This document shows positions 1,111-39,100 of a stretch of 43,067 nucleotides of DNA, piece after piece. Numbering within the stretch: the first letter of the stretch is position 1; every line of letters starts with the position of its first letter. Source of the DNA: a virus; IMG/VR virus record IMGVR_UViG_3300042396_000168, positions 1-43,067 of that record; one strand, written 5' to 3'. Both the position numbers and the translations under genes were made by a program. The notes beneath the pieces were generated by a model, which saw nothing but the letters and a program-made list of their open reading frames with translations, was not told the DNA's origin and ran no database searches.

Positions 1111-2730
1111 TTAAATCTCCACAAAGTCGTCTGGTTGCATAAAGATCGATGCTTCTAATCTACCTGTTGGATAGTCATAGTCAACACCTGGCACATTACC
1201 AGTTAGACCTGTAAACCTACTTTTTAATACTCTCATCTTAATGTGATTCCTAATTCTATCATCATCGTTTGACATATCACGAGCAAATGCTATAATATCA
1301 TTCGAGATTTGTTTAATCGAGCCTGAGCCTTTAATATCATCTAACGAAGGCAGTTGACCTTCTTCAAATGACGTTTTACCTGTAGGCGTCTTTCTTAAAT
1401 GTGATACTAGTCCAATCCAAACAGGATACCTCTTACATAGTCGTAACAAGTCATTCATTGTTTTGTCAATAGCTTCGTTACCAGTTAAACCATCGACACC
1501 TTCTGATACTAGAATTGTAATATGGTCAATGAATAAATATTTACAGCCAGACAATGCCATATATTCTAGTTTTTCAAATAATGTAGAATCTTCCATTGAG
1601 CCTTGATGATCAAGAACCATAATTCTATCATCACCAAATACAGCTCTAAAGCCTGCTTCTAATTCACTTTCTGTTAATTCTCTGAAAGATGGATTTACAT
1701 TCAAAGGAATACCAGCAAGCTTACGTGTTGTTTCTGCAGGTGCCTCTTCAAGCGCTACTATACCTACCATCTCTTTAGTGGTATCTATAATATGCCATAC
1801 AATTTCTCTCAATATAGTTGACTTACCTGAGCCAGTGCCGGATGTGAACAACACAATCTCGTTCTCACGCATTCCTTTAGTTTTAGCATTCAATGCATCT
1901 AAGCATGGAGGATATGGTATAGATTCAATATCATTATATGCTTTTAAAGCTTCCCATAATTCATCTCTACCTAAGATACCAACAGGTGTATATTTAGATG
2001 CTTCCCAAATAGCTACTAATAGCTGTTGTCCCCCTTTTTCTAGTAACATCTGACTTGCATCTTTTACAGGCAATTTAGCCAGTCTAACTTTATCTGCACC
2101 GACATATTTAATTGCATCAGCTTTAGCCTTTTCACCAGCTTCATCATTGTCTAGGCACAATACTACGGTATCAAAACCTCTAATCCAATCTCTGTGTGTA
2201 AGTAAAGTCTTAACATTAGATGCAGAAGGAATCGATACTACAGGATATATTTTGCCATACTTATCCAGTGAGGCTTGAGCAACAGCCATTGCATCTAATT
2301 CACCTTCTGTTACAATCAACCTTTTGCCACCACTTGTAAATTTATCCATTCCAAATAGTGTTGTTGGTTTACCAATACATGAGAATGTTTTAGGTAATTT
2401 ACGGACTTTATAAATGCCTTCTCCATATGGATAGTAATGTGTATCAACTTCACCATCCTCATTAAACGAAGAACGAACATTAAAGAATTCAGCTACTTCT
2501 TTTGATATCTTTCTTTCTTTAAAACCAACAGATTTAAATTTCTCTATATCTATTGTATACGACTTTTTAGGCTTTTCCACTTGGGTGAACTCCTTAGTTT
2601 TATACTCAGGGTTGGCTGGAAACCATGTTTGACAACTAAAACATGTGGCTGTCAGATTCTCGTATATCTGCAGGGCATCTGATGAACCACATTGATTACA
2701 CGGTTGATTATGAACAATTATCTTACCCAT
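1111..2730 (-). CDS. T7 gp4-type bifunctional DNA primase-helicase
   Basis: The 539-residue protein combines primer synthesis and DnaB-family unwinding in one chain. An N-terminal zinc-binding domain has C11, C14, C30 and C33. A TOPRIM primase domain shows E142 (VTEGELDA) and D194/D196 (LDNDEAG). The RecA-like helicase carries the Walker A motif GTGSGKST at about 298-305, a catalytic glutamate in ALEEAPAET and a Walker B-like strand YLFIDHITIL. Length and domain order match T7 gp4 and related phage proteins. The start overlaps the end of the upstream GIY-YIG gene by 8 bases, and the stop abuts nrdB, placing it in the replication operon. No internal start for a helicase-only form was established. 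Confidence 0.95.
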   Translation of the reverse strand: MGKIIVHNQPCNQCGSSDALQIYENLTATCFSCQTWFPANPEYKTKEFTQVEKPKKSYTIDIEKFKSVGFKERKISKEVAEFFNVRSSFNEDGEVDTHYYPYGEGIYKVRKLPKTFSCIGKPTTLFGMDKFTSGGKRLIVTEGELDAMAVAQASLDKYGKIYPVVSIPSASNVKTLLTHRDWIRGFDTVVLCLDNDEAGEKAKADAIKYVGADKVRLAKLPVKDASQMLLEKGGQQLLVAIWEASKYTPVGILGRDELWEALKAYNDIESIPYPPCLDALNAKTKGMRENEIVLFTSGTGSGKSTILREIVWHIIDTTKEMVGIVALEEAPAETTRKLAGIPLNVNPSFRELTESELEAGFRAVFGDDRIMVLDHQGSMEDSTLFEKLEYMALSGCKYLFIDHITILVSEGVDGLTGNEAIDKTMNDLLRLCKRYPVWIGLVSHLRKTPTGKTSFEEGQLPSLDDIKGSGSIKQISNDIIAFARDMSNDDDRIRNHIKMRVLKSRFTGLTGNVPGVDYDYPTGRLEASIFMQPDDFVEI

Positions 2731-3238
2731 CTTTATTCCAGTTGGTTAATATGTTTTGGTCTGCATGTACGATTGTATATAATCTTTCTCTATGGTCTGC
2801 AGAGACATTTTCTTTAACATCCCATGAGACTTTTTCAATTTGTTTATTGTACCATTTCAGCGATACGGGTGTTTCAACATGACATAATGACCATGTTTCT
2901 GCCCATGCTAGGCTGCCCTTTGTAGTATATTCTTCAATGACAATAAACTTAAACTCTTTCTTTGGTCTGCTCTCGAAGTGAGATGCAAGACAGTTAGAGC
3001 TACTCTTGTATCTACGCCAATCAGACTCCTGTCCATAAGTAGCTTTACCATATGACCTGTAGTTCTTTTTGCCAAGATAGAATCTATCCAAGACCGTATC
3101 GTATATAACATAGATGAATCCCACATATTTCTTATTCCCCTCGTTCATCTGTCTGTGAAAACACCAGTGACCATTATCAAACTTGCTTATTGGCTCACTT
3201 AGTGTGTGTGCAATCTTCCCTTTAAATTCTGCCATCAT
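2723..3238 (-). CDS. GIY-YIG nuclease-like protein
   Basis: This 171-residue protein has a degenerate GIY-YIG core: GFIYVI at about residues 40-45, YLGKK at about 54-58, then an SDWRRYKSSS block typical of phage GIY-YIG proteins (SDWxxYxxSS). The glutamate in AWAETW is a candidate metal ligand. GIY-YIG enzymes cleave DNA using one divalent metal. The gene sits between the flap exonuclease and the primase-helicase, close to where T7 carries its unrelated endonuclease I. A role in junction resolution or host DNA degradation is therefore plausible but inferred; a free-standing homing nuclease is the alternative. Its ATG overlaps the exonuclease stop by 4 bases. Confidence 0.7.
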   Translation of the reverse strand: MMAEFKGKIAHTLSEPISKFDNGHWCFHRQMNEGNKKYVGFIYVIYDTVLDRFYLGKKNYRSYGKATYGQESDWRRYKSSSNCLASHFESRPKKEFKFIVIEEYTTKGSLAWAETWSLCHVETPVSLKWYNKQIEKVSWDVKENVSADHRERLYTIVHADQNILTNWNKDG

Positions 3239-4312: not shown

Positions 4313-4898
4313 TGATTTCTCTCATAAATTTAACTACGACAATACGACCATCTTTTTGATCCTTACCATAAGACTCCCATGGAAACCTTCCATGAAATAA
4401 TCTTGAATCATAGACGATCATTGAGTTAGCTTTGGCATAATATCGGTCTCTAATTTCCCATAGATTATCATCTTCTGTAAATACATAATAATCCTCATCT
4501 ATTGCACAGTGCCCATGTTGTGGATGATCAAAGAAAGCTGTTCCAGAAGTATCACTAGTTTCTAAATAAAACAGTGCGGCTACTTGTGGTTGTTGATCAA
4601 GAACTTTACTATCTGAATGGACTCTAAATACTGTATCATGCATTTTAGTATTTAATCTTACGAAAGAATAAATATCTTTTAAAGGTTTTCCCCACGCATC
4701 CGAAGCTACTTTATTAAAAATATTATTAATACTTTCAGGTACTTCCTTGAAATACATTGGTGTATTATCTTCTCTAATCAAGCATTTGAAATTACTCCTT
4801 CTGCAGTATGAATTTAAATCTTTAAACTCTAATTTGGTTAGTACATTTTCAACTTTAATGAATTTCGTACCAATCATTTCCGATTTTTCCACTTCCAT
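4305..4898 (-). CDS. 2-oxoglutarate/Fe(II)-dependent oxygenase
   Basis: From the chosen ATG at 4898 the protein has 197 residues with a jelly-roll dioxygenase signature: H94-S-D96 (RVHSDS), distal H169 (DSRLFHGR) and R185 (GRIVVVKF) to bind 2-oxoglutarate. This is the full HxD...H...R set, so an active Fe(II) enzyme is likely. Start choice: the open frame reaches 4937, but the ATG at 4898 follows GGAG at good spacing; an ATG at 4877 is also possible. It overlaps the DNA polymerase end by 44 bases. The substrate is unknown. The replication context suggests a nucleotide, DNA or host-protein target, but prolyl-hydroxylase-like phage enzymes have the same fold. Confidence 0.82.
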   Translation of the reverse strand: MEVEKSEMIGTKFIKVENVLTKLEFKDLNSYCRRSNFKCLIREDNTPMYFKEVPESINNIFNKVASDAWGKPLKDIYSFVRLNTKMHDTVFRVHSDSKVLDQQPQVAALFYLETSDTSGTAFFDHPQHGHCAIDEDYYVFTEDDNLWEIRDRYYAKANSMIVYDSRLFHGRFPWESYGKDQKDGRIVVVKFMREINE

Positions 4899-6723
4899 CC
4901 ATAATCTCCACACCAAATAGTTTAGGGCCATCTGCAAAAGCTTGTTTACCTATTTCAGCAGCACGCTCTGCATATTCTTCAGGTACCATAAAATCAATCT
5001 CATCATGCATCATAATTAATGGTTGATAGGGAATTCCTGCAAGCTCGAGTCGCTCCATTGCAAGCATGCAAGCTGCACCGCATGTAATCTTTTCTGCTGA
5101 CTGTAACAGATAAACAAGAAGCTTATGAAAACTATCAACATACACACGGGTGCCTGCCAAACTAGGTATATATCCGTCTCCCTTTTTCTTTGTGTTTCCA
5201 TATATTTTCTCCAATTTTTCACTTAAATCTTTAAACCCTGGGACAGCTTTAATAAATCCACTCTTAAGCTTTTTACCTTTAGCATCATCTTGTGAGCCAA
5301 AAATATATGACCAAAGTTTACCGCCACTAGCACCGAACAAGAATGCATATAGGATTCTCTTAGCATTTGCTCGTGGTACAATATGATTCATCTTAAGATC
5401 TTTCTTTAAGATCTCTGTTAAGATATCTGCATTAAATTGATGTATATCGCCATTAAGTAACGTATCAATAAATGTAGGATCATTTAAATAATGCGCTAAA
5501 CCACGTGCTTGATTGCCTGATGAATCACAACCTACTAGTTTCCAACCAGGTTTGCATGAGAATAGTTCTCTCATTTCTCTACCCCAAGGAGAATCTCCTG
5601 AAGGTACATTAACAATAATTGAATGTCTAGCACGCATACTTGGTGTACCGATTGTCATACAATCGCCATGCAGATTACCATTCTCATCAACGTTCTTTAA
5701 CCATGTTGTTAAAATACCGCATCTTGCCTTAACAGTTAAAAAGTCTTTATATAACTTACCATCACCACCTAAGAATTCTAAACTATCTTCAGTAATTTTT
5801 GGTGTAGTCTTTTCTTTCTTACCTGTAATAGGATCAGCTTTATAATTCCAATCATTAGGAACCCAGCCATGTCTATATAAGAATACTTTTACGTCCGTAA
5901 CGGAATCAAGACTAAGTGGTTCAATAGTAATCCTACAATACTCCCCATCAACCACCCTATCGTCAGGATCAAACCCACTCCAAGGATCCACATCAAACCA
6001 TCTTGCGGTGTGTACATCATAACTCCCATCTTTCTTATATTTAGGCTTCTTAGCTTCAACTACACCAAGCTTCTTATCTACAGCTACTACTTTAAGACCA
6101 AGCTTAGAATTTAGTGCTTCATATGTTTTATCCATTTCAGCTTGTAGTCTATCATATAGCACATGCGCTTTTTCTAAATCAAATGGCCATCCGCCTAAAT
6201 TAGCTTCAGCACACCATTTACTTACAGCATGTTCAACCCTAAGATATTCTTTAACTTTGGGCGCTTTTTCAGATAACTCTATTAATTCCTGCTTTAGAAT
6301 CTCTAATACTTTAACGTTTAATGAAACGTCATTATCGCAATATTCACCCATTCTTTCTGAATATTGAGTCCAATCTTCAAACTCTTGTTTAGGAAAGTCT
6401 AGATATTCGCCCCAACGTTTTAAACCGTGACCATCACTACCAAACCTCCTATAGTCTAACACCTGCGATAGTATTAAAGTATCAACTACTTTTACTGATT
6501 TAGGTAATTCATAATTAAACAATTTCTTTAATACTGCCAAGTCATATCCAATTATATTATGCCCTATGACTTGTCGGGCGTTGTTAAATAAATGTATCCA
6601 ATGCATATCTCCTTGTAAGAATCTCATTCGTTTATTTGCACTTACATCATGTACAACCATGATCCACATTTGTGTAACGTCTTTTAATAAACCGTCTGTT
6701 TCAATATCGAATACATAATTCAT
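4855..6723 (-). CDS. Family A DNA polymerase with 3'-5' exonuclease (T7 gp5-like)
   Basis: The replicative polymerase, 622 residues from the ATG at 6723. Exonuclease motifs are D6/E8 (FDIETDG), GHNIIGYDL and YCDNDVSL. Polymerase motif A is at D400 (CDSSGNQARGLAHY), the O helix has R451, K455, Y459 and F463 (RANAKRILYAFLFG), and motif C is HDE at 573-575. The residue at the steric-gate glutamate position is Q405, which is unusual. The tyrosine at 459 matches T7 Tyr526, the position linked to dideoxynucleotide acceptance. A GTG at 6747 would add 8 residues but lies inside a terminator hairpin, so the ATG preceded by GGAAA was chosen. No 5'-3' nuclease domain is present; that activity is the separate gene at 3235-4026. 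Confidence 0.95.
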   Translation of the reverse strand: MNYVFDIETDGLLKDVTQMWIMVVHDVSANKRMRFLQGDMHWIHLFNNARQVIGHNIIGYDLAVLKKLFNYELPKSVKVVDTLILSQVLDYRRFGSDGHGLKRWGEYLDFPKQEFEDWTQYSERMGEYCDNDVSLNVKVLEILKQELIELSEKAPKVKEYLRVEHAVSKWCAEANLGGWPFDLEKAHVLYDRLQAEMDKTYEALNSKLGLKVVAVDKKLGVVEAKKPKYKKDGSYDVHTARWFDVDPWSGFDPDDRVVDGEYCRITIEPLSLDSVTDVKVFLYRHGWVPNDWNYKADPITGKKEKTTPKITEDSLEFLGGDGKLYKDFLTVKARCGILTTWLKNVDENGNLHGDCMTIGTPSMRARHSIIVNVPSGDSPWGREMRELFSCKPGWKLVGCDSSGNQARGLAHYLNDPTFIDTLLNGDIHQFNADILTEILKKDLKMNHIVPRANAKRILYAFLFGASGGKLWSYIFGSQDDAKGKKLKSGFIKAVPGFKDLSEKLEKIYGNTKKKGDGYIPSLAGTRVYVDSFHKLLVYLLQSAEKITCGAACMLAMERLELAGIPYQPLIMMHDEIDFMVPEEYAERAAEIGKQAFADGPKLFGVEIMDGSGKIGNDWYEIH

Positions 6724-6734
6724 ATATAATTTCC

Positions 6735-6767
6735 AAATAAAAGGCACCCCATTGTTAGTGAGGTGCC
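6735..6767 (-). terminator. Rho-independent terminator between the DUF3310 gene and DNA polymerase
   Basis: The minus strand reads GGCACC, a 13-base loop, GGTGCC, then TTTTATTT. The arms are 6762-6767 and 6743-6748. It begins just below the stop of the gene ending at 6775 and ends just above the polymerase start, so it probably reduces read-through into the polymerase operon. Confidence 0.7.
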
Positions 6768-6774
6768 GATTGTG

Positions 6775-7473
6775 TTATAGGATGCTTTCTACTTCTCCAA
6801 CCTTTATCGGTCTGCCGGCCTTTTTATAGGCGATTAGGTACTTTAAGTACCATAAAGCTTTTTGGAGTTCTTGAAGAGAATCATCCTTTTGACCATTACG
6901 GTCTAAGTATTTTCTTATTTGAAGTTCAACAGCCGCTTCAAACTTGATTGGATCTCTAAGAGTAGGTATTCTGCTCATAGTATCCAACCATTGTAATTCT
7001 TCTACGTAGCCCTTGTAATGCGCAGGGTCTACAGGTGTATTTTCTTTTTGAATATAGTCCATTAGAAACCTATCGAATTGTTCTTCATTATAGAATGTGT
7101 GAATAAGTTTATCATTAACAATAAACTCTGCAATTAAATGATCATTTTCTAAATTATATTCAGTTGTATCTCTTACATTTTTACTTAGATATTCATCAAT
7201 ATCAAATTTTCCAATTAGGTTACCATCGTAATAAAATTCAATATTACTCTGTTCTTTTTTAACCCAATGTTTTCTTTCTATTTGTGCATACCAAGCATCT
7301 AAATCATCTTCTGATTTAATATAAGTCATTCCTAGTAGTGGCATATTATCTGTTTCAGCTCTGATAATATATCCATTATTTAAGAATGAACGCATATTTT
7401 CTAATTCATTTTCATTAATGAATCTTACTAATCTGCCGTCTTTAAATATTTTATAAGTGTAACTTGGTTTCAT
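6775..7473 (-). CDS. Unknown protein with C-terminal DUF3310-like domain
   Basis: A 232-residue protein from the ATG at 7473, which follows AAGGGG at about 6 bases; the longer open frame to 7557 would overlap the upstream gene by 74 bases and is less likely. The C-terminal 70 residues carry a DUF3310-like pattern: PVDPAHYKGYVEELQW, then RKYLDRNGQKDDSLQELQKA and WYLKYLIAYK. DUF3310 proteins are common in phage replication regions and have no known function. The N-terminal 150 residues have repeated beta-rich IxxFxxGxLI-like segments (for example YKIFKDGRLVRF, IEFYYDGNLIGKF and AEFIVNDKLIHTF) and are not recognised. Confidence 0.7.
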   Translation of the reverse strand: MKPSYTYKIFKDGRLVRFINENELENMRSFLNNGYIIRAETDNMPLLGMTYIKSEDDLDAWYAQIERKHWVKKEQSNIEFYYDGNLIGKFDIDEYLSKNVRDTTEYNLENDHLIAEFIVNDKLIHTFYNEEQFDRFLMDYIQKENTPVDPAHYKGYVEELQWLDTMSRIPTLRDPIKFEAAVELQIRKYLDRNGQKDDSLQELQKALWYLKYLIAYKKAGRPIKVGEVESIL

Positions 7474-7483
7474 ATAAGACCCC

Positions 7484-7975
7484 TTAGAATACGTCATCTT
7501 CAGTTTCATTACTGCTGAACTCACGTTCATAGTCTGTTTCACCGAAATCGTCTTCACTAAGGCGTGGAGTATATACTATATGCTTTGTTAGCTGTACTGT
7601 CATAAGAGTAAAGCCTTTCTTAGTAACGCCCATTGGGTCTTTATATTCATATTCAAAGACACGAATATTACCAATAGAGCCATTCCCAATTGTATTAGGA
7701 TCGATAGGTCTTAACTTACCGTCAATCAATTTCACAGGTTCATTTGGTGTACCATCTGATTTAATAGATTTCTTTTTCAGATTAGCTCTGAAATAGGTAT
7801 CACCATCATCTGGAACGATAGCTTTAACAGTCAGCCCAATAGCTTCCCATTCTTTCTTTTTCTCTTTGTCGGTAGTCCGAATTTGGAGTTCCCATGTAGG
7901 ATTTTCTTTATTAAACTTGCCATTTGGTTTACCAAGTTTAGCGAAATAAATTTCTACGTCATATAACTTTGCCAT
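7484..7975 (-). CDS. Putative single-stranded DNA-binding protein
   Basis: From the ATG at 7975 (preceded by a purine-rich AAAGAGAGAA) the product has 163 residues. It is beta-rich and basic in the core (YFRANLKKKSIKS) and ends in a strongly acidic tail with a terminal aromatic residue (SSNETEDDVF). That architecture matches phage single-stranded DNA-binding proteins such as T7 gp2.5, where the acidic tail contacts polymerase and helicase. Its place just ahead of DNA polymerase fits. The family is inferred from composition, size and context rather than a clear motif. A longer frame to 8032 would start inside the hairpin at 8019-8044 and is rejected. Confidence 0.6.
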   Translation of the reverse strand: MAKLYDVEIYFAKLGKPNGKFNKENPTWELQIRTTDKEKKKEWEAIGLTVKAIVPDDGDTYFRANLKKKSIKSDGTPNEPVKLIDGKLRPIDPNTIGNGSIGNIRVFEYEYKDPMGVTKKGFTLMTVQLTKHIVYTPRLSEDDFGETDYEREFSSNETEDDVF

Positions 7976-8018
7976 TGCTGTTCTCTCTTTTGATTTTTGA
8001 ATTAGGGTTAATTTAACG

Positions 8019-8044
8019 GGGTCTCTAATCATTTATAGAGACCC
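8019..8044 (-). promoter_or_regulatory. Stable hairpin upstream of the ssDNA-binding gene (terminator or processing site)
   Basis: A perfect 9-base stem GGGTCTCTA/TAGAGACCC (8019-8027 with 8036-8044) with an 8-base loop lies between two genes. No U-tract follows on the minus strand; it is followed by a second small palindrome, GTTAAATTAAC. It could be a weak terminator, an RNase III site or a protective 5' stem for the downstream message. Confidence 0.5.
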
Positions 8045-8051
8045 ACATTTA

Positions 8052-8450
8052 TTACGAAAGGTCTACTGACTCTTGTACATTCTCATTTACACGAGCAAGT
8101 GAATCAGGAATGAACCATACATGACCACCAGTATTGCTAGTAATAATATGAATTTCAAACCAATCCGAATCTGGAATTTTTTGAGCTATATCAAAAGATC
8201 CAGGATCTAGAGCAAGATTAGTCTCTTTAAAGACACCTCTGTCATCTAATCCCATGAATTTAACTTGTAAGAAATCGCCAAAGCTTTCTAGGATATGTAT
8301 GTTACCTCCAAATTCATGTACATATCCTGCAGCATCATGCGTAGTCTTTACAATAGGCTCAAGCTTATCCCACAATGGTTTCCAGTGAGGGTGTGTTTTC
8401 TTGCCATCAAAGAATTCTCTGACATGTGAATTTTGTTTGAATGTAATCAT
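8052..8450 (-). CDS. Unknown conserved-looking phage protein
   Basis: A 132-residue protein from the ATG at 8450. This start overlaps the stop of the preceding 49-residue gene as ATGA and has GGAG upstream, so it is preferred over the ATG at 8462. The C-terminal half contains DWFEIHIITSNTGGHVWFIP, a beta-rich block that looks like a conserved domain core, but I cannot assign a family. Six bases above the stem of the 8019-8044 hairpin, it is the last gene before the ssDNA-binding/replication block. Confidence 0.65.
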   Translation of the reverse strand: MITFKQNSHVREFFDGKKTHPHWKPLWDKLEPIVKTTHDAAGYVHEFGGNIHILESFGDFLQVKFMGLDDRGVFKETNLALDPGSFDIAQKIPDSDWFEIHIITSNTGGHVWFIPDSLARVNENVQESVDLS

Positions 8451-8596
8451 TGTTTGCTCCATTTAGAAAACATATCTATGTATCGGTCAATTGTTTTAGC
8501 AGTCTCGTCATAACCGTCTTGGCCTGTGCCAATAAATGCTCTTAACAGTTTCAATAGTGTTAGCAATTCTGCAATCTCTTCTGTGAGTAATTTCAT
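8447..8596 (-). CDS. Small unknown protein, 49 residues
   Basis: Found by reading the gap between larger genes. The minus strand reads ATGAAATTACTC to a TGA at 8449-8447, giving MKLLTEEIAELLTLLKLLRA... and ending SKWSKQ. The start overlaps the stop of the upstream gene as ATGA (8596-8593), and the stop overlaps the next start the same way, so it is locked into a coupled chain. The leucine-rich amphipathic N-terminus suggests a helix or coiled coil. No function can be assigned. Confidence 0.72.
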   Translation of the reverse strand: MKLLTEEIAELLTLLKLLRAFIGTGQDGYDETAKTIDRYIDMFSKWSKQ

Positions 8597-11612: not shown

Positions 11613-12292
11613 CTATGCGAAAGCATATTCGCTTTCTAGAATTAAATTAATATCAAGATCACCCATCTCAAGATAAGTAAGATCTCCGTCAATATCATCC
11701 ATTATTGGATACAATGGATTTTCTTTATAAAGCTCTACGAAAGTTTCTCGTACAATTCTATATAGATTTGGCATGTCAGCAAATAAACATCCATAGCTGT
11801 CATGAATAGTCGTGATAGTGAAATCACAACGATGTGTAGTAAGCGCCAAGTGTGCTGCATCTAAACTATGAATAACATTAGGTGCTGCTCCTTGAGACTG
11901 CTTACCTTTACTAGGAACTACATCTTCAATGAAACATATTGCTAATTGAAATGTGTTCTCATAATAACCTGTAGATTTACGTGGTCCAATTGGTGGCCCA
12001 TATTGCACATAAATCTTTTTAACTTTACCTTCTGTGTAGTTTTGAACTACAGGAAAGTTTACTACTGGAACATTCCATGATAAGAATTCTTCAATCTTCT
12101 CACAGTTTCTTCCAGCATGTTCAAATATATTTAAAAGACGCATTGGCTTTTCTAATGATGCTTTACAGTCTTCAAATACTAACCGGCCTAGCCATGCACC
12201 CCATTTATGTTCCATGTGGAGCAGTAGCTCAATGCCATGTTTCTTAGCATCTAAGATTTGTTGTTCACCGAGCCCATAACTACTACCCCCGT
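11613..12292 (-). CDS. T7-like RNA polymerase, exon 2 (C-terminal part)
   Basis: Exon 2 runs from the 3' splice site at 12292 to the stop at 11613 and encodes residues 514 (completed codon) to 739 of the spliced polymerase. It starts YGGSSYGLGEQQ, so the catalytic Tyr514 (T7 Tyr639) is formed at the junction. It includes NVIHSLDAAHL, the second catalytic aspartate D678 in IHDSYG (T7 Asp812), and ends EYAFA like the T7 FAFA foot. The in-frame ATG at 12215 begins a 200-residue frame on its own, but residues needed for fingers and palm continuity lie upstream, so independent use is unlikely. Confidence 0.93.
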
Positions 12293-13043
12293 CATTATCT
12301 TCAGCAAGAATCGTTAATCCTTACCCGTAAATTTAGTTTAGTTTTGTTATAAATTAGATTGTAAACTCGCCATACAATTCTAATGATTTTTGTCTTACAC
12401 ATTCTGCAGCTTCTTCGGCAGTTTTAAATAAGCCGAGGTATAATTTCTTTCCTCTATAACCAAGTCTTGCTTGAAATTTACCACTAGGTGTACTTAAAAC
12501 TCCTTTATAACCTGTAGTATTATTTTTAGGTGTTTTAGTATTAATTGCATTTTGAGATTGCGTAGCTAATCTTAAATTCTCGATTCTATTATTTAAAGGA
12601 TTTATATCTATATGATCTATTGTCATACCATCTGGAATTGGACCATTATGCCATTCCCAGATAACTCTATGGACCATATATGTCTTTTGCTTGTGCTCAA
12701 ATTGCTTATAGCCAGAACTGTTAATTGAGCCTACATGTTTATGCTGATTGTTACTATACAATCGAATTAATTCACCATCTTTATAATCATAAAATTCTTT
12801 CCAATACATTATATTTCTCCGAAATAACTAAATTTACTGCTGCATATCACTATGCAGATGAGACTATATCATCACATCTCTAAGAGTGTGGAATGCGCTT
12901 CCCAGGGACTTCCCCGGTACATAATAGTCGTTACACCTTCATCTGAACCATATCTCCCGACAGTATTCAGTAGCTTGGCTCGGTATTGTCTATGGCGAAT
13001 AGAGTTCCACCGAATTCACATTCTTTTATTTCCGCTAGGATTA
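12293..13043 (-). ncRNA. Group I self-splicing intron in the RNA polymerase gene
   Basis: A 751-base intron with several matching group I hallmarks. The 5' exon ends TTCCGT (last base 13044) and pairs with intron GCGGAA to form P1 with the required U-G at the splice site. The intron ends in G (12293). The core has a Q-like element ATACCGAGCCAAGC (about 12973-12988), and P7 is formed by GACTA (12925-12929) with TAGTC (12862-12866). A P9-like hairpin CTGCAT/ATGCAG lies at 12840-12857. The HNH gene is inserted after the core, leaving 61 bases at the 3' end. Removal joins 1540 + 680 bases into exactly 740 in-frame codons, which confirms the boundaries. Confidence 0.92.
12354..12809 (-). CDS. HNH homing endonuclease with AP2 domain (intron-encoded)
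   Basis: A 151-residue protein. The HNH core is HRVIWEWHNGPIPDG then IDHIDINPLNNRIENLR, with the two-histidine DH region and the closing asparagines. The C-terminal AP2 DNA-binding domain reads TGYKGVLSTPSGKFQARL then KKLYLGLFKTAEEAA. Such enzymes nick or cut intronless alleles so that repair copies the intron. It has its own ribosome site (GGAGAAATATAATG) and lies wholly within the group I intron downstream of its catalytic core, so expression need not block folding. Its target should be the uninterrupted polymerase motif-B codons. Confidence 0.93.
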   Translation of the reverse strand: MYWKEFYDYKDGELIRLYSNNQHKHVGSINSSGYKQFEHKQKTYMVHRVIWEWHNGPIPDGMTIDHIDINPLNNRIENLRLATQSQNAINTKTPKNNTTGYKGVLSTPSGKFQARLGYRGKKLYLGLFKTAEEAAECVRQKSLELYGEFTI

Positions 13044-14583
13044 ACGGAAGTGTCATTGTATTACGTTTAACAATCTTACGTCTTTGTTTAGAATCTTTAA
13101 TTCTGTTCCAGAACACTGGTGCTGCAATAGAACCAATATCTGACCATTGTTGTTTGTAGGCTTTTATTTGCGCTACTAGTTGATTTCTAACATCTGATTT
13201 AGGCTCAGAAGCAGTAATCTTTTTCTTTAGTTTAATTAATCCATCTATAAAATCTTCACATTGTAAGATTAAATCTGCAGGCATCCGTGCTATATCATGT
13301 GCTATTTTATTCCATACATGTTCTGCAACGTATGCATATAAGTCTCCAGGTAACTCTAGTGGAACTAAATTAACATATGGTGCTGTTACTTCATCTCGTG
13401 TTAAAGCAGATAAGTGTTGTGAGCCATTAGTTGAACCGTCAATAAAACATTCAACATGTGATTCATACTCTAAATATCTTGGGCCAAGCTTTAGTGAATT
13501 CTTCAATTCAATACATGCTGATAAGAATTGCCACGGTTTATCTCCTGCCATCCAGCCTTGATTTACTTTTGGACTCTCTGCATATGATAATAAAATCTCT
13601 TGGTTGTCTAATACCCATTGATATCGATCTTTAAGATTTATTTTATCTGTTTTAGCGCCATCTTCGCGACCTGAAGAACCTGCCCAATTACTAGCAATTG
13701 ATACACATAACCAAAAGAAACCTTCTTCTCCAATAGCTTTCTTATCTTGACGCATTAAGAGACCTTTAGCAATATCACTAGACTGCTCATGTAGATATGC
13801 TGTTGTAGGGTACTTACGACCTCTGAAATCAAGATAATACATATGATAAAATATGGTGTCCATAAATTTATCTGCTATTGACAGGATAGCCTTTGTTTCT
13901 CGAAGCTTAGTGGCTTTAGCTTGCGGGTTCTGTTGTTCCCATATATCACTGAAAGCATCAGTGTGATTATTCAAAGCCCATTTAGCTACTGTGTAAACTT
14001 CTTTATTTATCTGCCAGCCTGTAGATAAACTTTTATTTATAGCATCAAATACTATTGGATGGGTATCAGGCGTCAGAATACCGGGAACATCCTTATTTCC
14101 TGTCTTAACTAACACTTGTCCTGTAGGATGTTTAAATTCAGTGTAAGATTCGTATGGCACTAATGAAGGTAGTTTACCTTTTGCACCCTCACGGCTTACT
14201 GTTTCCCATAACGCCTGTATCGCAGCATCATCTACTACTTCTACAACATATGTAGCATGCCCATTTCCAGCTGATCCAAGAATAGATCTGAGCATACCAA
14301 GCTCTTCAAATGAATATAGAATGAAAGCACCTGTCTTAGCTGCAACAGATGAATCTTTCTTCATACCTTTTCGGACTGAATGCCCAATGATACTTATTAC
14401 TTCTACCATCAAGATTTGTTTATTTACTGCACCTCTTTTAGGACGTGTGTATAAATATAGATTAGATATTATTACATCTAATATACTTTCTAATTCAATT
14501 TCTTTAAGAAACTTAAGAGGACTCTGAGGAGCAATTTCTAATTGCATTCTACGTGTTAATGATTGCTTCAATCTATTTCGCAT
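13044..14583 (-). CDS. T7-like single-subunit RNA polymerase, exon 1 (N-terminal part)
   Basis: Exon 1 encodes residues 1-513 plus the first base of codon 514. Signatures are YLDFRGRKYP near 250-259 (T7 MDWRGR), D382 in DGSTNGSQH (T7 Asp537), and K506 with RNTMTLP (T7 Lys631). Spliced to 11613-12292 it gives 739 residues, shorter than T7 (883), with the deficit mostly in the N-terminal promoter-recognition domain. Unspliced translation would run 25 codons into the intron and stop at 12967. The start has TTTAGGACTAATATG. The enzyme would transcribe middle and late genes from phage-specific promoters. Confidence 0.94.
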
Positions 14584-29504: not shown

Positions 29505-30130
29505 TACACCGCCTCTATAAATTTGACAATACCGTTATCCATTAGTATACCATCTTCATACACCATCCCTCTTACAACATCCGTATCATAACGAACGCGC
29601 ATTAAGACATCATCTTTATATTTCACTTGGGTAGCTGCTGTAACCGCAGTTCTAAGTTGCGGATGTATATTTGCAACAGATGTAGATGTACTACTCAAAA
29701 CAAGATCAGAAGTTAACATAAAGACTTTACCAACATTGCCGAAATTAATAAATGTGCCTTTAGGAATTACTCTCCCATTTTGATCAGGCGTTGCTGCTAT
29801 TGTAACTTGTGTACTAAATACTGCCGCATTTGCAGCAGTGTAAATATCTGCAATTGCTGTTAAATTTGCTTTAGCACCTACGTTTTGAGGTGTTGTGATT
29901 GTAAGTATTTCTGAATACCCTTTTGTTATTAGATTCACCATTAAGTCATTTGCAGTAGTGCTCTGGGGAGCTAGCTTAGCGTCTAACTCCCATCTTTGCA
30001 CTGCTCTTTGATATGTAAATCGTCTTAATGAAAGGGTATCTGAAACAAACATTGGTACATTGCTTCTAAGTGTTAGTGGTGCAGCAAACTTAGCAATCAA
30101 CTTACCGTTTTCCCAGATACCGTATGCCAT
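29504..30130 (-). CDS. Distal tail-like protein
   Basis: A 208-residue protein immediately after the tape measure (TAATG junction). The QRWELDAKLAPQSTTANDLM segment and overall beta-rich pattern resemble distal tail or tip-ring proteins, and the position matches Dit/lambda M. The assignment is mostly contextual. Confidence 0.58.
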   Translation of the reverse strand: MAYGIWENGKLIAKFAAPLTLRSNVPMFVSDTLSLRRFTYQRAVQRWELDAKLAPQSTTANDLMVNLITKGYSEILTITTPQNVGAKANLTAIADIYTAANAAVFSTQVTIAATPDQNGRVIPKGTFINFGNVGKVFMLTSDLVLSSTSTSVANIHPQLRTAVTAATQVKYKDDVLMRVRYDTDVVRGMVYEDGILMDNGIVKFIEAV

Positions 30131-33100
30131 TATCTTCTATATCCTTTTTCTTTATTTTGCGAATTGACGCCATCAGCGATGCTAGGCATCATCTTATAGA
30201 TTTCTTGCTTAGTTTGTCGCGAAATGTCGCCCGTTATATTTAAATTAATTACTTGTTGATTTTTATTCATAGCACCAGATGTAGATGCTAGCTTTGTATT
30301 TCCAGAGATTGGCTTTGTCATTATTGGCGCAGCAGCGTCTACAATACCGCCTGTAGCAAAAGTTGGTACTCTACCACTATTGATCTGGTGTAATAAGTCT
30401 CTATGTCTTGCAGTAGCTGCAGCATTAATGACAAATTCACCATGTGAAAGCATAGCTGGAATAGAGTCAGACGTACCAGTCCCAGGCCCACTTACTTGAC
30501 CACCTGCGGCAAAAGAAAATCCTAAATCTTTGCTTGAGAACATATTATTCAGTGCTGCTCCGCCTGCTGCGCCTAAAGGATTAGCTTCACCACCCCAAAG
30601 ATTTTTAAACAGATCACTAAATCCGCTCCCTACATTACCAAACAATTTGCCAAAAGGCCCATCACTTTTAAATAGATTACCAAACATGCCAAAGAATTGA
30701 GACAACATCCCCATTCCACCAGCTGCCCCAATACCGCCTGCGGCTGGTGCTGGACCCGCTGCCATAGTAGCTACAGAAGAGCCAATACTCATTAATGAAC
30801 TGGCTGAGCTTAATAATGATCCTAAGAAATGATGTTGTACTTTTCCACCATTGATTGCATGCAACATTGGAAGATTCTTTGCCGTTGCTTTGGCATTTAC
30901 AATGAATTCTCCATTAGACAACATCGTAGGTATTGAGTCGGATGTAGCCGTACCTGCACCAGTTATTTGACCACCTGTTGCAGCTCCGCCAATACTCCCA
31001 AACCATTTACCTATTCCACTGAGCATTCCTAAGAAGCCACTGCCAGCACCACCTTCGGTTGCAAAAGATCCCCACATATTTTTGAGACCACCAAACAAAC
31101 CACCACTGCCATCTTTTCCACCTAATAAGTCAGTAAAGCTAGTCCATATAGAACCACCTGTACCTTCTTTACTAAAGAATTTAGAGAATGAGTCAGATAT
31201 CGAATCTAAAAAGCCTTGTTGATCCGGTAACCCACCAATCTTATCCGCTAGTGGAGCCGCACCGCCCATTGTTCCTGCACCTGGAAGAGGTGTAAGCTCT
31301 GGTGTCGAACCATAACCGCTTGTGTCTGCGATGCCCTGAGTAATAGCCGAAGGAGCGTTTACATCTACAGCAGATGCCATATCCGTCAAAGGATATGCCA
31401 AATCAGTACCGTCAGCAGTATAACCATTTGATACGCCATTAGCATTTACAGTATTAATATCAAATACACCTTTTACAGAGTCTGCTATAGGTGTGCCGCC
31501 AATACCGCCAATGAGTCTATTTACAGCAGCGTCAAATCTAATCGTAGCTTCGTCGAATCTTACTTCAGGTGTTTTGTCAACATCATCAACCTTAGTCATA
31601 TCACCCCACCAGCTACTAATTCCGCCAGTGAATTTATCCCATGTCATATTACCTGTGAAAATATCCTTAAGACCAGTACCCATTCCGCTAAATGTAGCAG
31701 AAGTTAATTTACCTGTCTTTTCAAGCATTTTAGTGATACTGCCGCCTTTACCCATTTCTAATGAATTCATCATAGAATTAGTAAACATTTCCGCTAATTG
31801 ATCTTTTAAACCTGTTTTAAGTTTATCTGTAAACGTTTGAAAAGGAGTTTTGTCATTATCTGTTTGGCCTAATAACATACCTTTAAAGGCATCTTTGACT
31901 GTGCTAGTTGTATTAGCGGCAAATATCTTACCAGCCTCTCTTGCGAGATTTACAGCTCTTTCTGCCAAGTCCGAATTAAAATCATCTAACGCATCTATAT
32001 ATTTATCCCTTGCAGCAACTAACTTATCCGTGGGTAAATTATTTACTATTGCATCTGCAATCTTCTCTGAGGTATCGCTAGCAGCTTTTGCAATAGTGCT
32101 GTATTTAAATTTTTCCGCTTCAGTCGCATATAAGGCATTTTGCTCTGAAATCCCATTTAAAGATATAGCCGCAGTAAGACCTTTGGTATTTTTAGTGAAA
32201 TTAAAAGCATTTGATTTAATTAAATTGTCTCTAATTACTTTATTACGTTCACTTTTATAAATATCATCAGTTGCATCTAAGCCTTTCTTTAACTTATTTG
32301 TTATTTCGTTATCAGCATCATATATCGTATTTGACAATGTTAATAAATCATTTTGTAAAGTAGTAGATGTTTTTGCAATATCTTGGATTGATAAACCAAA
32401 CTTCTCTCTATCATCCAATAGCTGTCTAGAAGTAGGGTCATTCAAAACACTCTGAGCACTTTTATTCAAGGTGCTTTCATTAATTGTATTTAAATCCCCT
32501 AAAGCCTTTATTGCAGGCGCAAGATTTTCGGCAGGAATAAACTTACTAATGTTTTCAGATGCAATAGGTTTATTTGTAATAAGCGACTCTTTTGCAGTAT
32601 TGACAAAATCAGTTAATATTGAAGGATAGTATTCTTCAAAAGATTTTTTGACTTCACCAGCGGGTTCCATTTTTACCATAGGTTTGTCAGGAAACGCTTT
32701 AAGAGGCAGTTTATTCAATACATCGCTAATCATTGTATTGGCTGTAACATCCCATTTAGGCATATATTCTGTTTTAGATTTTTCAACAGGATACCTGGAT
32801 TTACCATCAAGAGATTTTTCGTAATCAAGATATTTAGACGTTTTCTTTTCAAAATCTAATCCTGACAATGAATTAAACATACTATACGCAGGTGTTGCAA
32901 ACTTAGAGAGAATTCCTGAATACATTTGCGTTCTAGCAATAGGCTCAACTTCACCTATTCCAACCTTGTCAGGAGGAGTTGGATATGTGTAGGCTTGATA
33001 ACTTCTAGGGGTTTCAACTGCAGGTGTCGGTAATTCTGGGATTCGTCTAAAAGACTTGTCACTAAGCTTTTTCAACATTGAATCTACATAAAAAGATTCC

Positions 33101-36100
33101 TCAGCGTATCCACCTTTTTGTAATTTAGTGAAATATTCTTCAGCTGTTTTAGAACCCATTGCTGGTTTGTATTTACCGTAATTACCTTCTGATATCAATT
33201 TCACATAATCTTCACCTGAAGCCTCTGGTGAATTGTAAGAACGCCATAATCTACCATTACCAGATTGGTATTTATTTCCACGATATATTTCAGAAGCTGA
33301 GATATTAAACAAATTATTAGCATTTTTAAAAATACCACTAGTTTGCTGTGTAGTCTCCATATCCGATTGCGCTTTAATCCAATTTGGATCTACATTCAAT
33401 GCCTTACCTACATCGATAAATATTTTATCTAAATTATTTGTACTCTTATATGAAGTAGGCGTTGAACTTGGTGTTTGCGCATTAGGTGTTGAGCTTGGTA
33501 TTTGCGTATTAGGCTTTGAAATAGTGTTGTTTAAGATGTCAATACTACCTCTTAACAAATCGACACTTGTTGTCAACTTGTCCATAGGCTCTCCAACTTG
33601 GCCTTTAAGATCTTTCATGCCCATTTCTAAGAACATTTCATTTATTTTATTAAAGACTTCGTTTAAGTTAGACTTGTCCGGCATTAATTTGCCAATTACA
33701 CTAACCATATCTTGAGACAATAAATTTTCAGATATTGCTTTATTCAACATATCTATTTTAGATGTATCCGCTATCATCCCAGCGCGTTGCGTATTAGGTA
33801 ATGCGCCAAAATTTCTTTCAGATAGATTGAAATTAGAATAAACCTTTTTAATTAAATCTAATCCTTCAGTAACACCTGTTTGCAAACTATTTTTGATTTT
33901 AGCTGAAACATCAACAATCATAGAAATAAAAGAAGCTTGTTTTGTCAGATTCTTTAAATCTTCTGAAAGCGCACTAGCCAAGCTTATATCACTATCAGCC
34001 AAAGCTTCTGAAAGCTTTAATTTCAAAGTATTAGCTGCATTCATTATTCTGTCTAATTTAAAATTAAATATATCTTCAACTTTAAATGAAGTGCCTAATG
34101 TTTCGTTCATTGAAGATACATTATCAGAATACGAACGGGTAGCTGCTGAGACACGTTCCAATGCTCTATTTAATTCTAATATTCTATTGTATTCTTTAAC
34201 GAATGCTTCATCACCTTCAATATATTGTAATCCAGATTTGATAATATTTAAAGTATTATTCAAGCTAGCTGCAAGCGTTCTTGTAGTCGCTGAAAGCCCT
34301 CTTCCTGAGTTACCTAAAGGCGCAATAGCAGATTCTCTTTCACTTCCGCTTATTGTAGTGCTTTTAATTTCAACTGTGGCATTAAATAATGATTTGCGTT
34401 TACTAAATAACTCTTCAAGACGTGCTTTGTAATCTTCAACATGATTTATATCAATCTTATTAATATCTGCTTCTACACCTTTTATTTGTATTGCGAGAGC
34501 AAGTACGTTCTCTAGTGCAGTAGTACTGGTGTTTGCTAAATTTGTGCCTCCAAGACCTTCAATATTGCTAAGTAATGATTCGGCACTGTTTGAGAATGCA
34601 GTTAGGCTATCATTAGTTTTAGCAATTTTTGCGTCTAATTCGGCTACGTATGCTACTGGCTTTTTAGTTTCTAAAGCAAATTGTCTAGCCTGTGCTAATG
34701 ATTCTTTCTGATATTGTAAATAGGTATAAGCCTCTTCTCCAAGATTTTTATAACTCATTACAGTAGAATCTGTAAGCGATTGTGCAATTTGAAAGTTACG
34801 AGAATCAACATTAGAGTAGATAGTATCTAAAGCCTTCTTATTCAACGTATACGTTTGATAAGGTAGCAATTGATTTGCACGTTCTTGTTTTGCAACATCT
34901 GCTCTATATTTTCTTAGCTTCTCAGTATTTTCTTTTTCCTTGGCTAGATATTCTGGATTTGTAATTGTTTCTTGCACATCTAAACCAGGATTTCTAACCG
35001 TGTATTTAGGCATTAACAAAGGATTTAAAACAGGTTCTCTTACTACTCTATTTGCTTCTTCTCGGAGTTTTAGTAAATCAGCTCTGTTTTTATCTAAATC
35101 TTTTAAAGCCGCAATATTATCCGTTTTACCTAAGGCATCTGCGGAAAATAAATTAGCTTTTTGAAATTTATCTCGAATTTCAAATCTTAAATCATATAAA
35201 GAATTTGCAGTATCATCTATTATTGCTTTAGCCTTAGCTGCTGCATTTGACATATTAACAAAGATATTAGAACGCTCAGTATCATTTTTTGCAAATTGCA
35301 ATGTATCGTATAAATCAGTTATAGAGCTGGTATACGATTTAATTTCATCGGTACGCCCTAAGATATCTGTTTCTTTTACATCGATGCCCGCAGTTTTAAG
35401 AGGACTTACAATATCCTTGCCAATACTTGCTTGATATTCTTTAGCTTTTCTATTCTGCGCCATTGCAAGAATTTGTTGTGCAATTAATTGATCTCTAATT
35501 TCAAAATTCTTTTGAATATCATCAACTAATTTTTGCGTTCCAGAGCCTTCTTTTAACTTATAAGTAACAGTTTTAGTACCTGGTGTGCGCAATGGGTTGA
35601 AGGAATCCCAAAAACTTACTGAGCGCTCATACATAGACTTATCACTAATGTTTTGAGCACCGTATTGTTTTTCAGTTAAATCCCTAGCATTTAAATTTAA
35701 AGACACTTGTCTTTTCTTAAGAAGATTAACTTGCTCGGCTGTTACACGTAAAGTTTGATCTATCTGGTTTTGAATACCAGGATCAGTATATTCAGCTTTG
35801 CCCAAACTTAATGCTAATTTAGAACCCACCATTAATCGTCTAAATAACCATTTAGATTGCTCGATAGAATTTTCTACAGTATATTCTTGAGTTCTTTTCT
35901 TAATATCTTCATAAGGCGCCAAGGGCTTGTTCAACTCCCGCATGACATTTAAAGGATAACCTATTTCCGCTCCTCTAAAATCTGGCATCCGATAGCCACC
36001 TTCTTCCGTTTTAGAATAAGTTGTTGGATATACTAATGACTCTAAAGCTGCTGTAATTTCTCCAGTACCCTTGCCCGGTAATACACCATTAAGTGTTTGA

Positions 36101-39100
36101 ATTTTATCAACTGCTTTTTGTAATTTATCACCTGACCACATTTTAAGTGAATCGGCATTAGTTGGCGCGGGTAAAAATGTAAGATCAGTAAATTGCGCAA
36201 CCAAATCTTCAACATTAGATTGACTTGCAATTACAGCTTTCTTTGCTATGGCATTTAGATCTCTAGCATTCCCTGTAACTTCTGCAATTGTCGCGCTTGA
36301 TGCAATACCTTTTGCAGTTATTTCATCTATATACTTTTTAGAAGCTTCATTAGTTCTAGAAATACTTTCTTCGTATTGATCTTTTAATTGGCCTGTCAAA
36401 CGTTCTCTATCTATTGTTCGTGCATCGTATTCCAGAGGTTGATTTAATTGAGCAACAATTCTAGCAGAGCTTTCTTTTAATCCTGTTTTAGCATCAGTAT
36501 TTTCTATTTTAAATCCAGCCCAATTAAGCATAGCCATTGAAACTTTCTTAATGGATTTTGCTAAAGTGCTATTTTCATTAAATAAGTAATCAATACCCAT
36601 TACTATTATTGAGCCAAATAAGAATACTTTACCTATTAATCTTTCACCAATAGCTCTAAAGATATTTTTCAGAATATCAATAACACTACCTGCAATAGAC
36701 ATACCGGCCATAGCTCCAAGACCACCTACCATGCCTGCAGTCTCATTACTTGCACCAAAGGATGTAGCAATTTTAGCGGCACCTAAACCTCCTGCGCCTG
36801 CAGCTAACGTATAACCAAGCATAGTTGGTAATGCACCACTGAATCTTCCGATAATTCCGTACGGAGACTGACCAGATAGCGCTCTGTCTGCGCGGCTTGC
36901 AGCAATAGATTCTGCTGTCGGAACTGGCACATATGCTCTGCGTTGAGCTTTGCTCATTGACTGCCATTCGTTATCAATAACTCTTTGTGAAACAGAAGGT
37001 CTTTTACTCATCTCTGAATATCTATAAGATCCTTTAGTGGGCGCTAAAGTTCCTGTGAGAGCTGCAATTTCTTCTTGTGTCATTCTTGAAGTTGCTGCCA
37101 GCTCACTAATATATTTCATATTACGATAAGATTCAATAGAGGTCGGAGCAATAGGCATTGGACCCGGAGCAGCTGCAATATTTTGCAATCTTTGTTGAGA
37201 TGTCATACCTGCGTATGTTTCAGCTCTTTGCTTCCAAGGATTCAAGATTGTCTTTTCAAATTCAGCAAGATTATTCATATGTGTAACTTGCATTAAACCT
37301 TTTCTAACACCTAAATACGCCATTATTAATGGTATAATCATTGGTATAATTGGCACGTCCATATTTGTAAATGGAATAGGTGCATTTCCTAAGTAGTCAG
37401 CACGCATTCCCATATATGTAGGTGTAGACTTATCTTTGCTATCTCTGGCATTTGCAATAAGAGTGATCAACGGAAAGAATGTAGAAATCATCATTAATGC
37501 TCTAGAAAGCAAAATAGATTTCTTTCCTAGCTCATTGAAAACTGAAACTACTCTTACTAAGGCTTTTGTAGTAGTTACCATTGAAGTGTAAAGACTTGCA
37601 AATTGGTTAAGTGCTTCTACACGGACTTTAGAACTAATAGCGTTATCTCTGTATTGATTGGCAAAAGTTGTAACCGCTTGGTTTGATCTTGTTAGAAATT
37701 CTGTAACAGTAGGTGATTTAAATGTGGCATATCCTAAATAATCTGGACGCATAGGAGATGGTTTTGACATCGCTGACATAGCTCTTTCATAAGGGCTATA
37801 CGTTTGCCAACCACGGCCTTCTCGGTAATCAAGCATTGGCTTAAGAATACCACCTGTTGCATCTGCCATTGTTCTGGCAAGAGCCATCGGACTTGGAATA
37901 TACGGGCGTGCCTTCATTCCTAGTTCGCCAGTAGAGTACATGTCAGTATATTTCCAAAGCTTAGCACGATTAGCTTCGGCAAGAGGATTTATACCTGCAA
38001 TGATTGGCATGACTTTTTCAATTATTGCTTGTGCGCCTGTTGTTTTTACGAGCTTAAGCATCGCATCTGCAGCACCAATAGCAATAACTGGACCCCATCC
38101 CATGAAGTTTTTAGCCATAATAGAGCCTAGCGTATAACCAAGCCATTTACCTATTACAAGGCCTCTGTTTTTCCACATGGCCATTCCGGTTAAAGTCTGG
38201 TCAAACCAAACAGGCGCTGTTACAAATTCGAATAAAACTTTTGTAAACAGACTGAAACCTTTGCCTACTGCGCTCATTGCATTAGCAAAAGTTTCTCGCA
38301 TAAATGCAACTCTGTCAAATTCTGTTATTAATTTCTTTATTTTACCTACAGGTGATTTTAAGACAGTCATTGCCGCAATACCAATTGTAGCAATTGAACC
38401 TAAGATCATTTCCGCATTTGTTAGAGAAGCATCAGTATTAATAGCAAATGTGTTTACAGCATTTTGCGCCATTTCAGAAGGCTTATTTAACATTTCTTGT
38501 GCGCTTTCTTTATATGATTTTTCTGGCCCTTTGGTTGCGCCAGTATCGGCATGCGCTAATGCCCCAATTAACAGAGCTGATAATCCTGCAATACCTGCAA
38601 GCATTTTAGGGTTAAATATTTTATCCATCCATTTAATAGCTTTTATTTTAGTCGTGCCTTTGTTCCATGCGTCTTCTATTGATATGAACATTTTACCAAT
38701 TCTTGTAGCTGGATCTGCTGGTGCTGCAAATAAAAGTCTTTCAAAGAAAGATGTTTTAACACCTGAAATAGAACCTGGATCAAATGCAGACAATAAGCGC
38801 ATTCTTGCGCCTTCCATAACAGTGCTCAAATAGCGTGGTATTGTCGTGTCCCAGAGACCTCTTAAACCACCATTTGCGTTAAATGATGTTCTTATTTTTC
38901 CTATTAAATCTAATCGGCTAAAATAATCTTTCAATGGATTTAAAACTTTAGCTTCAAATGTACTAAAACTTTGTTCTCCAAATAACATCATCCCAATTAA
39001 ACCGCCTTCAAAATAAGAATGGCCTATTGGATTGTCTCTAAAGATTCCATCAAAAGCGCCTGCCATGTCAGCCATTCCTGCTAACATAGCCATATTTTGA

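Follow-up and report, generated by a model that had tools for sequence, protein, structure and literature searches.

The RNA polymerase gene and its two exons

The stretch of DNA analysed here, hereafter called the window, comprises all 43,067 nucleotides of the viral record IMGVR_UViG_3300042396_000168. On its minus strand, an RNA polymerase gene extends over 14583-11613, with an interruption at 13043-12293. The 5' exon (13044..14583, minus strand, 1540 nt) encodes residues 1-513 and supplies the first base of the Tyr514 codon; it is defined by the PF00940 match of the spliced protein, by alignment with T7 RNA polymerase and by being contiguous in alleles that lack the insert (empty alleles). 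The 3' exon (11613..12292, minus strand, 680 nt) extends from the remainder of the Tyr514 codon to the stop codon, as indicated by the spliced frame, PF00940 and the T7 alignment. When joined, the two exons form an open frame of exactly the 740 codons counted in the first-pass annotation, including the single terminal stop and without internal stops. The product of 739 residues is a single-subunit (T7-like) RNA polymerase (PF00940, E 2e-65), and the T7 alignment identifies all the active-site motifs in it: DxxGR (DFRGR), motif A (IDGS), motif B (KRNTMTLPYG) and motif C (HDSYG).

The ligated mRNA would read CCG TAC GGG, which places the intron inside the codon for the equivalent of T7 Tyr639. 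A phmmer search against T7 RNA polymerase pairs Y514 with Tyr639 ('MTLPYGG' with 'MTLAYGS'), the residue that the first-pass annotation had assigned to the restored tyrosine. According to the ORF list and its translation, the reading frame of the unspliced mRNA (12967..14583, minus strand) encodes a truncated polymerase of 538 aa that ends 25 codons inside the intron, and it lacks the end of motif B as well as motif C. Because of these losses, we can soundly infer that polymerase activity would depend on splicing. As the first-pass annotation proposed, middle/late timing may in turn depend on it.

Judged by its RNA polymerase, the nearest named phage is DSS3_VP1 (Naomviridae; 35% identity), and the window combines genes of long-tailed phages with a single-subunit RNA polymerase. 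DSS3_VP1 has been reported to have deoxyuridine DNA (PMC12697855). Among the other genes of the window, 30130-42039 encodes a very large tail tape measure protein of 3969 aa, which implies an unusually long tail. A SegE-like GIY-YIG endonuclease gene, the second homing-type gene in the window, is located at 2723-3238 between the helicase-primase and exonuclease genes. Two relatives of the window, L063 (G009) and L069 (G019), and the roseophage DSS3_VP1 (MN602266, 5201-5417) also have group I introns inside or close to their large terminase genes.

Borders of the intron

The group I intron (12293..13043, minus strand) has a size of 751 nt, starts with TAATCC and ends with ATAATG, its terminal G being 12293. 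Scanning IMG/VR with the spliced protein yielded both filled and empty alleles. In nine contigs (L002-L008, L011 and L015), whose polymerases are about 93% identical to that of the window, an uninterrupted CCN TAT GGN spans the insertion point, and precisely the intron is missing. These natural empty alleles prove the exact junction, 13044/12292, and with it the earlier proposal that the intron splits the codon of the catalytic tyrosine. Other IMG/VR contigs carry an insert at exactly the same base (L009, L010, L014, L061, L121, L127, L140, L141, L172 and L174). The intron measures 751 nt in L009, L010 and L017, 744 nt in L014 and 720 nt in L061, and intron and flanks are almost identical in the window, L009, L010 and L017. 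Near residue 300 (around 5882-5891), the 5' exon of L017 is frameshifted, with a short overlap, and this reflects either an assembly error or a broken allele.

Ribozyme match and fold

In the covariance-model search that had been suggested as a check on the intron, RF00028 matched 12840-13053 on the minus strand with 58.7 bits, against a gathering score of 50 (E 3.6e-14 in a search of 951 bases and 3.9e-16 in a search of the whole record). The matched region corresponds to the ribozyme core from P1 through P9 (12840..13053). We wrote out the group I fold, including the P3/P7 pseudoknot, and scored covariation over ten introns, nine from the Tyr codon and one from L018. In this alignment 97.5% of cells are paired and 24 of the 49 pairs show compensatory changes; none of 500 shuffled controls scored as high, and slid versions pair in only 34-47%.

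P1 is formed by the end of the 5' exon, UUCCGU (13044..13049), and the internal guide sequence GCGGAA (13030..13035), both on the minus strand. Exon and guide covary: a G-C pair becomes A-U in L121, where the Pro codon is CCA, and a C-G pair becomes U-A in L174. The U-G pair at the 5' splice site is present in all ten introns. In P3 (5' strand 13017..13023, partner 12891-12897), four of the seven pairs have changed on both sides. The 5' strand of P7, GACTA (12925..12929), and its partner TAGTC (12862-12866) are paired in all ten introns, and since they are invariant, P7 is conserved but lies outside the covariation support. The terminal G is fixed in the window by the empty alleles; it is also present in the relatives, where T|...G was a requirement when the junctions were refined. 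P1, P7 and the terminal G are thus as they had been described from the sequence, and the covariation supports the predicted ribozyme fold, including P1. In the ten-intron alignment, the interval between P7 and P3' contains a stem (helix 7) that varies and shows compensatory changes; additional stems in this interval are typical of group IA introns, a candidate subgroup.

It could be argued that the insert is a disrupted pseudogene or the product of an assembly error, particularly because the initial scan of the whole window against Rfam (cmscan, E<=1) did not list the intron. That miss is evidently a filter effect, as the scans of the region and of the record exceeded the curated threshold. 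Moreover, the same insert occurs at the same base in independent contigs, the matching filled and empty alleles refute such an origin, the ribozyme pairs are compensatory, and both exons are open and conserved. We therefore consider it next to impossible that the insert is anything other than an intron.

The intron endonuclease and the alleles at the tyrosine codon

The intron contains an intact ORF (12354..12809, minus strand) for a putative HNH_3 endonuclease of 151 aa with an AP2-like C-terminus, preceded by a plausible ribosome binding site, GGAG (12817-12820, minus strand). The HNH_3 match is full (PF13392, E 1e-21), in agreement with the HNH homing enzyme that had been proposed. In the PDB, it weakly matches AP2/ERF proteins as well as 1u3e, an HNH homing endonuclease. 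The locus thus combines an endonuclease ORF of a known class with close relatives in which the very same base either carries the intron or is uninterrupted, as is characteristic of homing introns.

The intron at the Tyr codon is scattered over a tree of 65 polymerases, occurring in ten rows with nine changes of state; the intron after residue 507 (see below) occurs in six rows with six changes. This is a quick tree, and the changes may be gains or losses. Two pairs of contigs, L129/L130 and L162/L163, have nearly identical polymerases and yet differ by an intron. The states seen at the Tyr codon are empty, with an intact ORF, with an eroded ORF (411 nt in L127 and 510 nt in L141) and without an ORF (L121, a 256-nt intron). 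Taken together, these alleles appear to represent all stages of a homing cycle. In addition, for about 60 nt the flanks of the window resemble those of L014 rather than those of its nearest kin: 4 of the 7 informative bases there are donor-like, as opposed to 25 of 316 in the rest (Fisher p 0.0015, with four window sizes looked at). This is only suggestive of a co-conversion footprint.

Alternatively, the intron might be a relic of old vertical inheritance, able to splice but no longer moved by its endonuclease. Vertical descent would give the near-identical intron and flanks shared by the window, L009, L010 and L017, and the ORF is eroded in other copies. However, the window has an intact ORF whose HNH_3 match is full, close relatives are without the intron, and nine changes among ten carriers were counted on the tree, though losses are as possible as gains. 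On balance, a relic seems improbable to us.

How constrained the site is

The first-pass annotation considered the insertion site to be nearly mutation-proof. At the level of the protein this holds, the residues there being invariant; the DNA, however, varies synonymously. Compared with the window, the empty alleles have 6-7 synonymous differences in the 30 bases upstream and 7-10 in the 30 bases downstream. Only 14 of the 61 alleles without the Tyr-codon intron have a G at the wobble position of the Pro codon, the base that takes part in P1, and the codon of this preceding residue is CCG in 8 of the 10 intron carriers, compared with those 14 of 61. Since synonymous bases at the site vary, "mutation-proof" is too strong a description of it.

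Other insertion sites in the polymerase gene family

A scan with an alignment of the 3' exon as query yielded at least 80 loci, and a survey of gaps followed by refinement of the junctions was carried out on 74 distinct relatives. Seven insertion sites were found among them: 247|248, 254|255, 383|384, 387|388, 507|508, within 514, and 522|523. In the T7 alignment, all seven fall into three active-site regions: DxxGR together with the position just before it, motif A, and motif B. The sites are strongly conserved, with a mean entropy of 0.36 against 1.21 for random positions of the protein (permutation p 2e-5 for the seven sites; p = 6e-5 or 0.003 when one site per motif is kept). Of the records with an interrupted gene, all but that of L118 gave RF00028 matches above the threshold.

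The most complex case is L172 (contig 3300019867_000001, 104 kb; 94137-104241), which has four introns in its polymerase gene and whose spliced frame encodes an open protein of 742 residues. The exon between its introns at 507 and 514 is only 19 nt long, AATGTTATGGTTCTTCCGT. The fourth intron, at 514, has no separate RF00028 listing and is assigned by its sequence and its fit to the alignment; nine RF00028 matches are listed in this record in all.

The endonucleases encoded at one site (514, 507, 383 or 247) are 50-100% identical to each other, while those of different sites are at most 45% identical among the best matches listed. Each repeatedly used site therefore appears to have its own endonuclease lineage. 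In L018, the ribozyme core is 85% like that of the window, but the endonuclease is akin to those of sites 247 and 383; this combination indicates that core and endonuclease have separate histories. The L018 intron interrupts DFR|GR, and here, too, the exon reads ACTTCCGT.

These sequence comparisons indicate that the polymerase gene is an intron hotspot that has been invaded repeatedly at active-site codons, with at least seven sites in the family. The intron at the Tyr codon is one of several related introns that use active-site codons of this gene.

Introns were also observed in a very divergent single-subunit RNA polymerase gene (PF00940, E 2.8e-7 on the last large exon) of L081, L083 and L076 (IMGVR 3300049594_000091, 3300034166_000186 and 3300043786_000041), which contains up to four RF00028 introns. 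Some of them adjoin motif A (DA|SSSG in L083, missing in L081) and motif B, and the sets vary by contig. In L081, an ORF at 4815-8489 for a Mu F-like head protein contains a Hint/intein-like insert (PT-HINT, E 0.024, below the cut-off) and is continuous with the sequence running into the divergent polymerase.

Discussion

We conclude that the insert is very probably (at a probability of roughly 95%) a mobile phage group I intron that resides in an RNA polymerase gene and spreads by the ordinary homing mechanism. According to this interpretation, the pre-mRNA of the polymerase would fold at 12840-13053, and the guide GCGGAA would pair with the last bases of the 5' exon, UUCCGU. Guanosine would attack after U13044, the freed exon would then attack after G12293, and the ligated mRNA, CCG TAC GGG, would restore Tyr514 (T7 Tyr639). 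When a relative without the intron co-infects, the HNH protein of the intron would cut or nick its uninterrupted codon, and the intron would be copied across during repair. From the sequences we infer splicing in the cell, the activity of the endonuclease and the loss of polymerase activity when the RNA stays unspliced.

Intron-borne endonucleases in phage polymerase genes are already known, from PhiPA3 and the N4-like phage ZC08. In PhiPA3, the HNH endonuclease gp210 is encoded in a group I intron of an RNA polymerase beta-subunit gene (PMC11620839). As in the window, a group I intron with an HNH gene lies in a phage RNA polymerase gene, beside conserved residues, and is missing in a close relative. 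The polymerase of PhiPA3 is multisubunit, however, whereas that of the window is T7-like and single-subunit, with the insertion inside the Tyr639-equivalent codon and at least seven sites in the gene. In ZC08, an HNH endonuclease is located inside the RNAP2 gene (PMC5418858). It is likewise a homing endonuclease gene in a gene of the single-subunit polymerase family and is missing in a sister phage, but the section consulted describes an endonuclease insertion, without an intron fold, a junction or a catalytic codon.

The endonuclease of the window might also do harm to rival phages that lack the intron by damaging their polymerase gene, as gp210 of PhiPA3 does to PhiKZ. This published case likewise concerns an HNH enzyme encoded by an intron within the RNA polymerase gene of a phage (PMC11620839), and competitors with empty alleles exist. 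On the other hand, ordinary homing accounts for everything observed, and the wobble differences may already shield the empty alleles, so that we regard such an additional role as conceivable but doubtful.

The same architecture, an intron with an HNH endonuclease, is known from a polymerase gene of a T7-like phage, that of a DNA polymerase there and of an RNA polymerase here. Genes with several group I introns occur in Staphylococcus phage Twort, where one gene reportedly contains two. Twort thus resembles the present family in having more than one self-splicing intron per phage gene, and differs in that up to four are found here in one polymerase gene (L172), with an exon of 19 nt. In an open-access search of the literature, we found no intron in a single-subunit RNA polymerase gene beyond the endonuclease insertion of ZC08, and none at these sites. 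Named phages with similar intron cores have them in or near DNA polymerase and other genes, and among the matches listed none is annotated in an RNA polymerase gene. The apparently split RNA polymerase genes of Providencia PSTRCR_120 and Salmonella LPST153 were considered as intron cases and rejected, as they have no intron-sized insert. The RNA polymerase split of N4 (gp15/gp16) was also rejected as the trace of a former intron, since the end of gp15 falls near residue 287 of the window polymerase, which is at no intron site.

A more far-reaching, and in our view unlikely, scenario is that in this phage group the single-subunit RNA polymerase gene is a standing battleground. Several homing introns would compete there, every one of them bound to its own active-site codon, with up to four stacked in one gene. 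By carrying an intron, a phage would both attack co-infecting relatives and be immune to them, at the very gene that governs their transcription, and splicing of the polymerase mRNA would delay the infection programme.

Few enzymes have been studied as thoroughly as the T7-like RNA polymerase, and yet our open-access search found no report of group I introns at these sites in its phage genes. One practical consequence is that, in uncultured phages, polymerase genes will be wrongly annotated as truncated. The occurrence of empty, full, eroded and ORF-less alleles at a single codon makes the homing cycle open to study in nature, and the allele set connects the choice among synonymous codons with the ability of P1 to form there.
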